In this document: positions 3,798 through 10,459 of the stretch, piece after piece
Numbering within the stretch: the stretch's first letter is position 1
Layout: every line of letters begins with the position of its first letter
Origin: Dunaliella salina
Lineage: Eukaryota > Chlorophyta > Chlorophyceae > Chlamydomonadales > Dunaliellaceae
Direction of reading: 5' to 3'
Assembly (NCBI GenBank): GCA_002284615.2
Contig: MU070856.1
Span: 14,005-24,463 of the forward strand
Length of the DNA stretch: 10,459 nucleotides
Position numbers and translations under genes: made by a program
Notes under the pieces: generated by a model
Database searches by the model: none
What the model saw: the letters and a program-made list of their open reading frames with translations, nothing else
What the model was told of the DNA's origin: nothing

Positions 3798-3878
3798 GTT
3801 GCTGAGCTGGCTAGAGCAAAAAGCATGGACCCAGTAGTCTGCACTGTGGGCATTGTGGGTGGTGTCACTCCAGGTCAT
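3798..3878 (+). CDS. M16 peptidase-like gene, exon with the central strand of the N-domain
   Basis: An acceptor CTGTGCAG (ending 3797) and a strong donor GTGAGT (3879) enclose 81 nt, 27 codons, phase 0 at both ends. The exon starts VAELARAKSMDP and ends CTVGIVGGVTPGH. The second half matches the M16 hallmark 'l-v-V-G-D-V-x-P-x-x-V', with Gly in place of the usual Asp. It joins in phase to the 5508 exon, which continues with VWKLAKKYW as the family pattern predicts. The last 15 bases of the exon plus the donor form the first unit of the tandem array that follows. Resemblance is good but the exon is short. Confidence 0.6.
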
Positions 3879-5507: not shown

Positions 5508-5673
5508 GTCTGGAAGCTCGCCAAGAAGTATTGGGCAGGGTGGAAGGAGCCCTATGCCAACACAGCGGCCTCCTCTCCATCCTTGCAAGCGCCTCAGTCC
5601 CTTATGGTCTCAGCCACAGCAGCAGCAGCAGCAGCAGATGTACGGGGAGAGCTGGTTCTTCAACTCTCCTTCA
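5508..5673 (+). CDS. M16 peptidase-like gene, exon beginning VWKLAKKYW; 3' end uncertain
   Basis: The acceptor CACTGTGACAG ends at 5507 and the exon joins in phase 0 to the 3798 exon. It reads VWKLAKKYWAGWKEPY, a close match to the M16 segment after the central strand ('v-x-x-L-A-x-K-Y-F-G-x-W-K-x-x-Y'), then a Ser/Pro/Gln linker and polyAla from a CAG tract (5617-5638). Candidate donors are GTACGG at 5640 and GTACGA at 5674; the latter is used here. The same frame stops at a TGA about 50 nt further. Another frame, open to 5913, reads polyGln then SPSVRATPLM, also acceptable for the next M16 strand, so a frameshift at the CAG tract is possible. The roughly 25-40 residues expected before the 6607 exon were not found. 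Confidence 0.5.
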
Positions 5674-6274
5674 GTACGAGCCACCCCTCTAATGCCTGCA
5701 TCGCCACCCACCCCAACTGAGGTGCTACCCGGCAGTTTTGCTGAGAGCACCATCCCCGGGAGCTGTTTGCGACAAGCAGCGCAAACAGGATTAAAGCAAG
5801 GATCGGCAGCACTTTACAAAGTGCAGAAGGGCTGCCCCGTCCTGCAGGTACGGAACTCCAGGAGTCGCCATCAGACGCGTTTTCTAAGCCACATCAAAAT
5901 AACATGGGAATAGACTCCCAGAGACAAAATGGGTCTCGAGCTGGCCAAACCTCTTGCTTGTAGTTTGGAATTCGCCATACTCCTGTCTGTTCGTTTTATC
6001 AAATGGACCCTCTGAGTCTCTGCAACTTTCGTGCTTGCCGAGGCTTCCCATGGCGGGTGCCCAACCTTCAAGCAACATGAAGCTTTGCTTTGTGCCTACT
6101 TTAGGTAAAGTGTGAGCAAGCAGAGGAAAGAACGTTCAGAGCAACCTCTATATGCAAGGAGGGCTTTCTGATTTCGTTCGAGGGGTCAAGGGCTTCTGCT
6201 GGCAGCGCTGGAATTCCACTCAAAATTTTCTGTTTAAATGGAATGGGAGCACTCTTTCAAGAAAGCTCCATGAA
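5674..6274. other. Presumed intron with no resolved exon
   Basis: The start of the stretch is open in one frame to 5913 with a good donor (CTGCAG|GTACGG at 5848), so some of it may be exonic. Beyond that I see no supported feature. A short M16 exon ought to lie somewhere between here and 6606. Confidence 0.3.
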
Positions 6275-6307: not shown

Positions 6308-6606
6308 GGCAATTTGTATTGCAAATTTAAGCTTGAATTCGATATTCCCACAATCTTGGTGTATGCAAATCATCCTGTTTTACCAGCTTGTTTTTGCTGT
6401 TTTACATTTGCTGCAGTGCTTGTGATACAATGCCATTGCAGGTTTTTAAAATGCAGATGTTTGAACGCTTGCAAAGAGAGAAGCACTCTTGTTTGCCTTG
6501 CCAGCCTACAGCCTTGGAAGCAACTTAGCAACTGTAAATAAGGGACGCTATGCTGAAGTCAAAGCTACATTTAATCACCTGCAGCGTTCCTTACTCCTGT
6601 ATGCAG

Positions 6607-6689
6607 GTAGCTTGTGAGCTGCTGTCTGGCTCACGCACCTCCAGACTTGCCACCCAGCTAGTGCTGCCCCAGCGCTTAGTGTCTGCCAG
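6607..6689 (+). CDS. M16 peptidase-like gene, exon with the GRTSRL-type motif of the C-terminal domain
   Basis: Acceptor CTGTATGCAG (ending 6606) and donor GTAGGG (6690) enclose 83 nt, starting in phase 0 and leaving two bases (AG). The peptide VACELLSGSRTSRLATQLV followed by LPQRLVSA matches the C-terminal M16 domain pattern 'l-L-s-x-G-R-T/S-S-R-L-y-x-x-L-V', in which the domain's helix packs against the catalytic half. Ser replaces the common Gly before Arg, and Ala the common Tyr. The two left-over bases join a C at 7813 to give Ser, so the splice to the next exon is exactly in phase. This is one of the surest exons in the window. Confidence 0.75.
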
Positions 6690-6769: not shown

Positions 6770-6864
<95 letters not shown>

Positions 6865-6869
6865 TCACA
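6770..6869 (+). repeat. (CA)42 microsatellite
   Basis: An uninterrupted CA run covers 6770-6853, then TATACACACACTCACA. It sits in the intron between the 6607 and 7813 exons. The polyHis-Thr open frames across it are artefacts. Confidence 0.98.
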
Positions 6870-7250: not shown

Positions 7251-7257
7251 CTGTTTC

Positions 7258-7773
7258 TGTCATCACTGGAGGCATCTCTTGTCATCACTGTAAGAATATC
7301 TGTCATCACTGTAAGAATATCTGTTATCACTGGAGGCTGTCTCTGTCATCACTGGAGGCATCTCTTGTCATCACTGTAAGCACATCTGTCATCACTGGAG
7401 GCTGTCACTGTCATCACTGGAGGCTGTCACTGTCATCACTGGAGGCTGTCACTGTCATCACTGGAGGCATCTCTTGTCATCACTGTAAGCACATCTGTCA
7501 TCACNATCTGTCATCACTGGAGGCATATCTGTCATCACTGGAGGCTGTCACTGTCATCACTGGAGGCATCTCTTTTCATCACTGTAAGCACATCTGTCAT
7601 CACTGTAAGCACATCTGTCATCNCTGGAGGCTGTCACTGTCATCACTGGAGGCATNTCTTGTCATGACTGTAAGCATGTCTGTCATCACTGGAGGCTGTC
7701 ACTGTCATCACTGGAGGCATCTCTTGTCATCACTGTAAGCATGTCTGTCATCACTGGAGGCATCTCTTGTCAT
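7258..7773 (+). repeat. Minisatellite of 21/22-bp units in a 65-bp higher-order pattern
   Basis: Twenty-four units all start TGTCATCACT (with a few changes) and end in one of three tails: A, GGAGGCATCTCT (22 bp); B, GTAAGCACATC (21 bp); C, GGAGGCTGTCAC (22 bp). Unit starts run from 7258 to 7746; one unit at 7496 is cut to 13 bp at an N. The order is A B B C A B C C C A B x A C A B B C A B C A B A, so C-A-B trimers of 65 bp recur. Ns at 7505, 7623 and 7656 mark assembly ambiguity. Unit lengths are not multiples of three together, so it is not a coding repeat. It ends 39 bp before the 7813 exon. Confidence 0.97.
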
Positions 7774-7812
7774 TAGGACCCAATCTTGCCGCTGTGTGCT
7801 TGGCATGCACAG

Positions 7813-7880
7813 CGCCATCACGTCCTACCCTGGAGAGAAGCATGCTGGCCTGACGCTGGCCACAGGCGTGCCCAGAGAAG
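7813..7880 (+). CDS. M16 peptidase-like gene, exon with the YPG(E/D)KHA segment
   Basis: An acceptor GGCATGCACAG (ending 7812) and donor GTGTGT (7881) enclose 68 nt. The exon begins with one base completing a Ser codon from the 6607 exon and ends with one base that makes Gly with the 9958 exon. It reads TSYPGEKHAGLTLATGVP then RE. In bacterial-type M16 proteins the GRTSRL helix is followed after about 12-15 residues by 'x-Y-P-G-D-K-x-x-x-L-x-x-x-x-x-P-x-x-G', exactly this order and spacing. Phase fit on both sides plus family pattern make this call strong. The exon's last 34 bases and its donor are tandemly repeated downstream. Confidence 0.78.
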
Positions 7881-8480
7881 GTGTGTGGATTGATGTTTGA
7901 GCTCAACATTGCAGGCTTTATTGCATGCTTTGCTTTATGCTGAGAAGGGGTGAAGCAAGGGGCCTGACGCTGGTCACAGGCGTGCCCTGTTAAACTGTGC
8001 GGATAAGCATTTGAGCTCCAGGTTGCAGGTTTTGCTGCATGCTTTACTTAAGGCTAAGATGGGTTGTAAGAAGGGGCCTGGCACTGGTCACAAGCATGCC
8101 CAAAGAAGGTGTGTGGGATTGACATTTGAGCTCCAGATTGCAGGCTTCATCTAGATTGCAGGCCTCATCTAGATTGCAGGCTCATCTAGACTGCAGGCTC
8201 ATCTAGATTGCAGGCTTCATCTAGACTGCAGGCTCATCTAGGTTGCAGGCTTCATCTAGACTGCAGGCTCATCTAGATTGCAGGCTCATCTAGATTGCAG
8301 GCTCATCTAGATTGCAGACTTCATCTTTTGCCTTAGTGGATGCTGAGAAGGGGTCAAGCCAAGAGATAGATGCCGGTTGCAGGCGTGCCCAGAGAAGTTG
8401 AGTGGATTGGCATGAAAGCTCTGGATTGTGTGCCTTGTTCAAGTGAAACCAGAGATGCAGTTAAAGCAGAGACGCATTTA
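7847..8480 (+). repeat. 114-bp tandem array whose first unit contains the exon end and donor
   Basis: Units begin at 7847 (inside the exon), 7961 and 8075, exactly 114 bp apart, with a diverged fourth from about 8364. Each starts as GGCCTGACGCTGGCCACAGG, then GCGTGCCC, the donor region, 'TTTGAGCTC', 'TTGCAGG' and 'GAAGGGG'. The donor position reads GTGTGT in unit 1, GTGCGG in unit 2, GTGTGT in unit 3 and TTGAGT in unit 4. Unit 2 has an in-frame TAA in its exon-like part. Unit 3 is enlarged by a nested minisatellite. Confidence 0.9.
8137..8328 (+). repeat. Nested 17/18-bp minisatellite inside the third 114-bp unit
   Basis: Ten full units and one partial of ATTGCAGGC(T)TCATCTAG. Starts are at 8137, 8155, 8173, 8190, 8207, 8225, 8242, 8260, 8277, 8294 and 8311. 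Units alternate between 17 and 18 bp by one T, and first bases vary (AT, AC, GT). Most junctions form TCTAGA (XbaI), and the AC variants form CTGCAG (PstI). The seed, TTGCAGGCTT, is present once in the first 114-bp unit. Confidence 0.97.
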
Positions 8481-9344
8481 AAGCATTTAGATTGTAGTCT
8501 TGAGCCAGATTGTGGGCTTGGAATTTATCACAAGCATGCTCTTTGAATGGCAAGCACAAGGCTCGATCCGTTTTACATACCAGCACACCTTAAATCAGGT
8601 TAGCCAATTAGGTTTGAGTTAATGTCCAGCTGCAGCCAGCTAATTCTGAGTATGCAGGACCTTTAATTTGGACCTTCTGAGCAACCCTGCATACTCAGCT
8701 TGTGCTGGAAATGAAAAGGAGATGGCTTTTGAAATTTCATGACAGCTGGCTTTGACCAAGCTCCAGGGACGCGCACAACCGCTCCTGGGCCACCAAAACT
8801 GGCAGAACATGCCTGGGAAATATGCTGGACAAGTCCTCATACTCAGGTGGGGGCCAAGAACAGTGCTTGCCTGGCTTCCCAGTTCGCACCACTTTTGCCT
8901 AGCAAATGGCACGCAGGTGAACATGCACTAAGTGCTCAAGACCAAATTTTGCCCCCCCTTTTTTTTACTCTGTTGGATCAGGCTTGACCTGAACCTACCT
9001 GAGAGCTAAAATATGGGCAAAATTTGGGCCAGAGCAGGTGTTTTGGCACCCATTTGCCTGGACATGGTCAAAAATGACCTAAAATGCCCATGGCTTGAAA
9101 TTAGAGCCCCACCCTCACTTTTTTGATGCAGAAGTACCAAACAGGCCATCCTTAAGCACTTCGTAGCCTCAGATTGTGGCAAGGCATTAACTCCTCGTTT
9201 TCACACATAGCTTGGCTAAACTGGCCTTAAATAAATCCTGGTTGGGACACTCTATCAAGTGTCTCTGGCCTGCACCGTTTGTAGCCAGCAGGCGATGCCA
9301 TGATACTCGCAAACGAAAGGTAGTTTGAGGCCCATGCAAAAGAA
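8481..9344. other. Intron sequence with one inverted repeat, no gene
   Basis: CTGAGTATGCAGG (8646-8658) and its perfect reverse complement (8686-8698), with outer CCAGC/GCTGG extensions, could form a hairpin with a 27-base loop. An acceptor-like TGATGCAG at about 9129 opens a frame, but the flanking M16 exons already join in phase and no donor follows. I see nothing else. Confidence 0.45.
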
Positions 9345-9555
9345 TCTTGTGCGCTGGCTGAAAGCGGCATCATCTGGGGGGTCTAGGAGTTGCCACCGTG
9401 CTGCCGAACAACCACGCCACCAGGAGGTGCCTAGTGTGGGCATATCCTAGGTTGAGGCACAAGCTCACAAGTTGTGTGCTCTGGCTGAAATAGGTGTGGA
9501 GGTTCCAGGAGTTTATCTTGCTGCTGAGCCAAGGAGCCACCTTGCCTCCTGGTGG
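9345..9555 (+). repeat. Two diverged direct copies, about 126 bp apart
   Basis: Copy 1 (about 9345-9428) and copy 2 (about 9471-9555) share the order TTGTG, GCTGGCTGAAA, a G-rich spacer, TCYAGGAGTT, GTGCTGCC/TTGCTGCTG, a GCCACC motif and a CCTCCTGG/CCAGGAGG end. Identity is moderate with small gaps, so the duplication is old or the copies belong to a dispersed repeat. Confidence 0.5.
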
Positions 9556-9725
9556 GGCTGGGCTCCTCCATATTTGGCCAAATCATTTGTCTGCTTTGGA
9601 CTTGGAGCTCTGATGGCTTCTGCTGGAGGCCACATTGCCTTCCAAATTGAACGCCTCCACTTGATTTGCTGTGCCATATGACGTCACTATCTTTTTGTTG
9701 CACCCCTTCAACTCTTTTTTTGCGA

Positions 9726-9748
9726 GGGCTGTTGTTCCAGAACAGCCC
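9726..9748. other. Short hairpin followed by T-rich tract
   Basis: GGGCTGTT and AACAGCCC form a perfect 8-bp stem around a 7-base loop. T-rich sequence (about 9768-9799) follows. In a eukaryotic intron it has no clear role. Confidence 0.5.
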
Positions 9749-9957
9749 AGATTTGCTATCTGTGCTTCTATTTTTTTTGTTTTTCTACTTTTTTTTTCTG
9801 GAGGACTTCATCCACTTTCTCCTTCCACCCTGCACAAAAGTGCTCTTCTGTATCCTTCCTCTCCGGGCTCAGATTCACAATGCACGGGCTCGTCTTCAAA
9901 TTATGGAGGAAAGCATTATGAGACTGAAGCTGTCTTTTGCCATTCCCTACTTTTAAG

Positions 9958-10031
9958 GGAGCTCTCCGGAGGAATGTGAGAAGCTGCTCAAGGAGCGACT
10001 GGAGCAATTGTCATCCTCTGCTCCCTCCCAT
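9958..10031 (+). CDS. M16 peptidase-like gene, exon with the ...SPEECEKLL... helix
   Basis: The acceptor TTCCCTACTTTTAAG ends at 9957 and the donor GTAAGC is at 10032, giving a 74-nt exon. Its first two bases complete a Gly codon begun at 7880, after which it reads SSPEECEKLLKERLEQL and SSSAPSH, leaving phase 0. M16 C-domains have 'P-x-x-G-x-(T/S)-x-E-E-x-E-x-x-L-x-x-E-L-x-x-L' right after the preceding strand, so order, spacing and phase all fit. An earlier acceptor at 9872 would give a longer exon interrupted by TAA at 9954-9956; that TAA overlaps the acceptor I prefer. The gene continues beyond, probably off the window. Confidence 0.75.
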
Positions 10032-10367
10032 GTAAGCAGTTGTCGGAAGAAATGCTCACTGTGACTCCTCAGTTGCTGAAAAAACAAAATGATGGTCTGC
10101 ATGCGTCTTTAGGAGCAGCTAGGTTCTTGCTCTTTGAGAAGTAGTAATGATGGAAGTTTGTGAACAACGTAACCAGGCGCTTCCATCCCTGCACACTTGG
10201 CTGTGCATTCCTGGATTATGATTTCAGGTAGAAGCTATTGCAATAGCAGTTTTTATATCTTCAGCAATTGTTGTTCAAGATTACCTTTGGCCAGGGCTCA
10301 CGACTAAAATTTATTAATGGACAACCTCCTGTCCTCTTATGTTTTTTCACACAAGTAGGAAGGACAC

Positions 10368-10368
<1 letters not shown>
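10032..10368. other. Presumed intron start; no firm exon
   Basis: An acceptor-like GACTCCTCAG (ending 10072) and donor-like GTAGTA (10141) enclose 68 nt open in phase 0, but the peptide does not resemble the expected M16 continuation. Nothing else is recognisable before the terminal microsatellite. Confidence 0.35.

Positions 10369-10459
<91 letters not shown>
10369..10459 (+). repeat. (AC)n microsatellite at the right edge
   Basis: An uninterrupted AC run of 91 bases reaches the last base of the window, so its real length is unknown. The poly-Cys/Val frame on the opposite strand is an artefact. Confidence 0.98.

Follow-up and report, generated by a model that had tools for sequence, protein, structure and literature searches.

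The end of an exon in an M16 peptidase-like gene of the green alga Dunaliella salina, together with its splice donor, is repeated in tandem within the intron that follows. The duplication comprised exon as well as intron sequence, running from 34-44 bp inside an existing M16 exon across the donor into the intron. Re-amplification brought the unit to about four copies, and a nested 17-bp array later grew in one of them. With good confidence, the array is best read as the outcome of near-neutral tandem duplication across splice sites. Exon-edge duplication clearly recurs in D. salina.

The 114-bp array and its source exon

The window analysed here is a stretch of 10,459 nucleotides whose end coincides with the end of its contig; the 9,905 bases fetched upstream of it are all N. 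The assembly searched amounts to 284.9 Mb in 1,403 contigs. Two D. salina proteins found with the joined exon peptides define the gene: P0001 (DUNSADRAFT_2821, 449 aa; ankyrin-like and TIR-named, with an M16-like C-terminal part) and the M16 peptidase-like P0002 (594 aa). In tblastn searches P0001 maps onto the window in exon order, most pieces with 97-100% identity, at 208-316, about 1783-1830, 3798-3878, 5508-5638, 5719-5847, 6607-6689, 7813-7880 and 9958-10031 (exact ends read by eye). The exon at 7813-7880 encodes part of an M16 peptidase: P0001 matches it at 100% (7811-7882) and continues, again at 100%, at 9957-10031, while P0002 matches it at 95.8%. The identity of this exon, already proposed in the initial annotation, is thus supported independently of the repeat; the downstream exon had been started at 9957 and is moved to 9958 by a reading by eye that keeps the frame. 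Assignment to M16 follows from the matches of P0002 and of two bacterial M16 proteins, P0003 and P0004. Searches of Pfam, NCBIfam and PDB sequences with the joined peptide pieces gave no M16 match, the PDB search returning just two chance-level AcsD hits (E 0.3). The features are as follows; a slash marks the cut at a donor or the join in a protein.

6607..6689, + strand: preceding M16 exon (VACELLSGSRTSRLATQLVLPQRLVSA); P0001 and P0002 matches at 6601-6687
7256..7773, + strand: separate minisatellite of 22/43/65-bp units in the preceding intron, ending 40 bp before the exon without crossing into it (Tandem Repeats Finder, self-comparison)
7813..7880, + strand: M16 peptidase exon (AITSYPGEKHAGLTLATGVPRE plus the first base of G), source of the array (P0001 100%, P0002 95.8%, frame)
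7881..9957, + strand: array-bearing intron, as joined in P0001 (P0001 exons on both sides)
7847..7960, + strand: copy 1 of the 114-bp unit, with the last 34 exon bases, the used donor AAG/GTGTGT after 7880 and 80 intron bases containing an in-frame TGA (Tandem Repeats Finder, self-match, frame)
7961..8074, + strand: copy 2, donor altered to CTGTGC at 7995, in-frame TAA and TGA (self-match, frame)
8075..8147, + strand: front part of copy 3, with an intact decoy donor AAG/GTGTGT cut after 8108; the tail continues at about 8327-8364, past the nested array (Tandem Repeats Finder, self-match)
8135..8326, + strand: nested 17/35/52-bp expansion within copy 3 (Tandem Repeats Finder)
8365..8421, + strand: partial copy 4, in which 18 bases (8380-8397) are identical to the exon end and GT is gone at the homologous place (self-match, BLAST footprint)
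9958..10031, + strand: next M16 exon (SSPEECEKLLKERLEQLSSSAPSH); P0001 100%, P0002 inside a wider match

The initial annotation had described an exon end and donor duplicated into the intron, with a first unit starting 34 bases before the exon end, further copies at 114-bp steps and a fourth beyond a nested expansion, and had proposed a tandem-repeat finder as a check. Tandem Repeats Finder recovers both the 114-bp array (7847-8147, 2.6 copies, 77% matches) and the nested array, and the description agrees with what was found: copies start at 7847, 7961 and 8075, followed by the partial fourth near 8365-8421. Each unit crosses the exon-intron boundary, joining the last 34-44 exon bases and the donor to about 80 intron bases. 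The exon edge itself is homologous to the copies, rather than sharing being confined to intron sequence; the last 34 exon bases (7847-7880) score 49 in local alignment with their own intron, the top score among 500 dinucleotide shuffles being 25. The array as such therefore stands, but its 3′ limit, formerly put at 8480, does not: the BLAST footprint spans 7837-8421, related sequence stops nearer 8421, and 8442-8485 is a separate 17-bp repeat (Tandem Repeats Finder). The minisatellite upstream of the exon contains three N, at 7505, 7623 and 7656.

The exon has been held while the copies drift. Over the 34 exonic columns there are five differences between copies 1 and 2, six between 1 and 3 and nine between 2 and 3, which places about one change on the exon branch and four and five on the copies. 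Copies 2-4 share GT at the position of the GC within the exon's GGCCACA; the paralogue P0002 has the alanine that matches the exon, whose state is therefore probably ancestral.

The idea that the duplication had moved the exon border is contradicted by the proteins. P0001 joins PRE/G straight to SSPEEC, P0001 and P0002 both read GVPREGSSPEEC, and in a comparison by eye P0003 and P0004 have an equal number of residues across the join, with no gap. From these ungapped alignments of P0002 and the bacterial proteins, the border in use is judged not to have moved and, as far as can be seen, the array would leave the protein unchanged. Under near-neutral duplication the first donor would remain in use; the copies behind it would then be spliced out with no change to the protein, and such duplications would be tolerated and decay at a near-neutral rate. 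Splice-site-crossing duplication recurs in the introns of this alga, with donor-side copies lying downstream of their exon and acceptor-side copies upstream; the exon copy would be the selected one. The effect would be intron growth and a supply of decoy splice sites, and any function of the array is putative.

Several observations concern the state of the gene. P0001 is a fused gene model, an ankyrin-like, TIR-named N-terminal part being followed by the M16 C-terminal part, and a separate intact M16 paralogue exists in P0002. The M16 part at the window locus looks like a decayed, truncated and frame-shifted partial duplicate: no M16 HxxEH in a fitting context was found in the window gene copy (there was one unrelated hit), and the frame changes relative to P0002 at a CAG run near 5617-5637, which P0001 crosses with an 80-base gap. 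A weak match to P0002 at 2621-2701 (residues 257-283, 41%, E 0.03), in the right order, is possibly a remnant M16 exon skipped by the gene model. At 316 there is an apparent GC-AG intron, the P0001 join fitting AAAGGAG/GCGAGT. Long (AC)n runs occupy 1-40, 6770-6869 and 10364-10459; two of them lie at the window ends and the last closes the contig. P0002 and the exon queries match the assembly, much of which is N, at the window's own locus only, and a phage collection contained no match to the window.

Exon-edge repeats at protein-kinase loci

Ten loci that ranked high when the same assembly was searched for protein kinases, picked before their sequence was seen and regardless of repeats, provided 32,797 readable bases from one protein family in one species. 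They hold 21 of the 66 matches of that search, some high-ranking loci having been skipped, for example where the frame hinted at neighbouring N. Comparing the loci with themselves, at periods of 35-600 and E up to 1e-4 and with low-complexity sequence filtered out, yielded 11 repeat families. Exon ends were taken from frames and splice motifs, several of them being predicted. In the first exon set six of the 11 families overlapped an exon edge, with 1.3-1.4 expected (P 6e-4); two further exons, shown by tblastn of 142 proteins, led to the recognition of the edge families in L032 and at L039 4084-4317, so that the final figure is eight of 11 against 1.87 expected from random placement of the footprints (P 4e-5). 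From self-comparison and exon ends, the eight families, found at five of the ten loci, divide into five on the donor side (L032, L034, two in L038 and L039) and three on the acceptor side (two in L039 and one in L040). In the latter, exon starts and their acceptors are duplicated upstream into the preceding intron (L039 294-1155 and 4084-4317; L040 938-1069, reverse strand). The other three are confined to introns; L034 holds two of them and L038 one.

Proteins can be compared with two of these loci. At L038 and L039 the joins in P0005 and P0125, YPPP/GQ and RPYG/SMKQQQ, correspond to the first donor, and at L039 both proteins use the last of three acceptor-side copies (765, 875 and 1044). A JGI sequence, P0126, has identical joins; it is probably a spliced transcript, because the three exons concerned alone span 3.4 kb of genome for about 150 of its 849 residues, while its longest contig has 5,876 bases. 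All three are gene models or translated sequences. The edge in use at both loci is the one joined to the rest of the exon. Minisatellites are common in the assembly: 200,000 bases sampled at random contained 35,410 readable ones (164,590 N) with 15 arrays of period at least 15, two of them of at least 80. Two readable 10-kb loci taken at random and scanned with Pfam showed only the domains PCIF1_WW and RNase_H and no useful splice sites.

If the positional excess of exon-edge families is true, plain neutral placement is not the whole story. Exon edges might genuinely be favoured for tandem duplication, for mutational or selective reasons such as splicing-linked R-loops or microhomology at splice motifs, a reading that we regard as tentative. 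The exon would act as a master copy that seeds intron growth repeatedly, which is conceivable but rather doubtful. Equally, we would put forward with some reserve that D. salina exon edges are preferred starts of tandem duplication, from which a selected exon spills its last or first 30-110 bases and splice signal into the flanking intron.

The difficulty is one of visibility: a pair anchored in an exon stays recognisable for longer because exon copies are held by selection. The excess of eight families in 11 survives moderate correction for this effect, with P 0.002 if visibility is doubled and 0.014 if it is tripled, and weakens to 0.041 at a fourfold and 0.085 at a fivefold weight. Masking all exon bases leaves seven families, of which four still extend to an exon edge where 1.38 would be expected (P 0.028). 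The same masking removes four of the eight edge families, as a visibility effect predicts. Part of the excess is indeed visibility, exon copies decaying slowly.

Probes taken from the last 40 bases of exons were re-found within 600 bp of intron at five of 20 donors, compared with eight of 198 intronic probes and none of 400 shuffles; five of those eight intronic hits fall in introns with a donor-side array. Leaving out one doubtful case of short offset (L040 1487, offset 4) makes the count four of 20 (P 0.016, Fisher's test). By position relative to the exon-intron border, hits number 5/19 at the exon end, 0/55 deeper in the exon and 0-3/19 at each intron offset. Set against a preference for edges are the acceptor probes from the first 40 exon bases, re-found at just two of 15 acceptors, the small sample from a single protein family in which families within one locus are not independent, and the finding of no mechanism signature at the sampled loci. 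Overall, the positional excess at exon edges is suggestive.

Decoy donors, intron origin and artefact

A second alternative to near-neutral duplication gives the copies a role as alternative or regulatory donors: splicing from a downstream one would either alter the protein or reduce expression through an mRNA that carries a premature stop. The donors at the window read AAG/GTGTGT in copy 1 (7880), AAA/CTGTGC in copy 2 (7994, dead), AAG/GTGTGT in copy 3 (8108, intact) and AAG/TTGAGT in copy 4 (8397, dead there). Copy 3 had rightly been singled out as a ready decoy, since it keeps the full 9-mer, and copy 4 as lacking GT. As 114 is a multiple of three, splicing from copy 3 would insert 228 nt and leave the phase intact. 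The exon frame, though, reads PREGVWIDV*: copy 1 already has an in-frame TGA six codons beyond the exon, and copies 2 and 3 contain additional stops. The in-frame TAA noted earlier in copy 2 is confirmed by this reading; the TGA of copy 1 and the loss of GT in copy 2 had been missed. No open reading frame would thus accompany use of an alternative donor at the window, and a functional isoform from the copy-3 donor, as implied by the alternative splice forms first suggested, is unlikely at this locus because of that early TGA. P0002 still gives a weak match to the copy-3 peptide GLALVTSMPKEG (58%, E 1.9).

At the kinase loci the evidence is mixed. In L038 the decoy CTG/GTGAGT (6.2) scores above the used CCG/GTGAGT (5.6) and lies 192 nt further on, in phase and open throughout; in L034 the decoy CAG/GTGAGT scores above the used CAG/GTGGGT. 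Against regulatory use, the L039 decoy runs into a stop at once and that of L034 is out of phase, which leaves L038 as the only open frame among the three other decoys checked. P0001, P0005, P0125 and P0126 are all joined at the first donor, and no decoy-derived insert is present in P0005, P0125 or P0126. GT is kept at the homologous place in seven of 13 donor-side copies, read by eye at the window (1/3) and four kinase loci (L038 3/6, L039 2/2, L034 1/1, L032 0/1). This is about what is expected of sites roughly 20% diverged and fits neutral decay. Regulatory donors are, on this evidence, improbable as a general account of the copies. The L038 decoy, judged from its motif and frame, is a better candidate for alternative splicing than the window, and the best of those found.

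An origin of the intron through tandem duplication of an AGGT-containing exon segment (the Rogers / Hellsten model) is very unlikely: AGGT-bearing tandem exon copies do adjoin a donor, but the model predicts likeness to the next exon after each donor copy, and exon 9958-10031 scores 16 against the array, a value reached by 162 of 300 shuffles, so that intron gain from exon duplication was rejected for want of homology to the downstream exon; moreover, the unit carries intron sequence after the donor, and the intron therefore predates the duplication. An assembly or annotation artefact is still less credible, for although the draft assembly has many gaps and the neighbouring array contains three N, the copies differ at 15-35% of sites, unlike assembly stutter, and the layout recurs at other loci with independently supported exons. 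A transposon or introner was also considered and provisionally set aside, the assembly search giving one match, the window itself; this search is weak, 164,590 of 200,000 sampled bases being N.

Known boundary-crossing repeats and intron growth

Introns are usually thought to grow by transposons and internal repeats. Recurrent copying of exon edges suggests one further route to the large introns of D. salina, with proteins left unchanged. If exon edges are copied repeatedly, a single process would lengthen introns, create decoy splice sites and provide raw material for extending exons; it could be counted in any annotated genome. It leads to a testable rule: copies on the donor side are found downstream of the exon, with splicing at the first donor, and those on the acceptor side upstream of it, with splicing at the last acceptor. 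There is also a warning here for gene finders: through the copies, coding-like stretches and genuine donor motifs persist within introns.

The draft genome of D. salina has been given as 343.7 Mb (PMC5658486), and 53% of the genome as intron in a passage citing others (PMC12702839). If exon edges are truly favoured, they would steadily drive intron growth in a genome of which about half is reported to be intronic, and would maintain a supply of decoys. A small number of these could become new exon ends, the decoy in L038, open and in phase, being a candidate.

Tandem repeats that cross exon-intron boundaries are known already, from human duplicated genes and from single cases like a potato RdRp gene; what may be new is their regular siting at D. 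salina exon edges. Literature searches, mainly of open-licence titles, found no report of exon-edge tandem repeats in Dunaliella. De Grassi and Ciccarelli (2009, PMC2812944), in the passages considered, describe human genes in segmental duplications where internal tandem repeats at an exon-intron boundary change the length of the exon or the intron, usually by expansion. There, as at the window, minisatellite units cross the boundary in duplicated genes; in about two thirds of the modifications listed in those passages the boundary or exon was changed, whereas the used border at the window is unchanged, and copy number was compared between paralogues, whereas the window array is known from one locus.

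In the potato RdRp gene a tandem duplication spans an intron-exon boundary (PMC4974935, in the part describing this gene). The duplicated segment likewise crosses one boundary and takes splice signals along with it. In potato the outcome was a new intron, formed from a cryptic exonic donor, whereas at the window the intron came first and was only lengthened. Intron gain in Drosophila by tandem duplication of coding sequence with a proto-splice site (PMC2891723, as far as its relevant passages go) similarly leaves tandem exon copies and splice signals in an intron. It needs exon-derived sequence at both intron ends; the window, by contrast, lacks downstream exon sequence.

Alternative splicing has been described in a D. 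salina MAPKK gene, DsMEK1, for which a variant without four exons is published (PMC7439689); the passages covered describe no use of decoy donors. L038 is MAPKK-like and has two exon-edge arrays, identity with DsMEK1 not being implied. At 3577-3769 of L038, this MAPKK-like gene carries a five-copy exon-edge array with a decoy 192 nt downstream.
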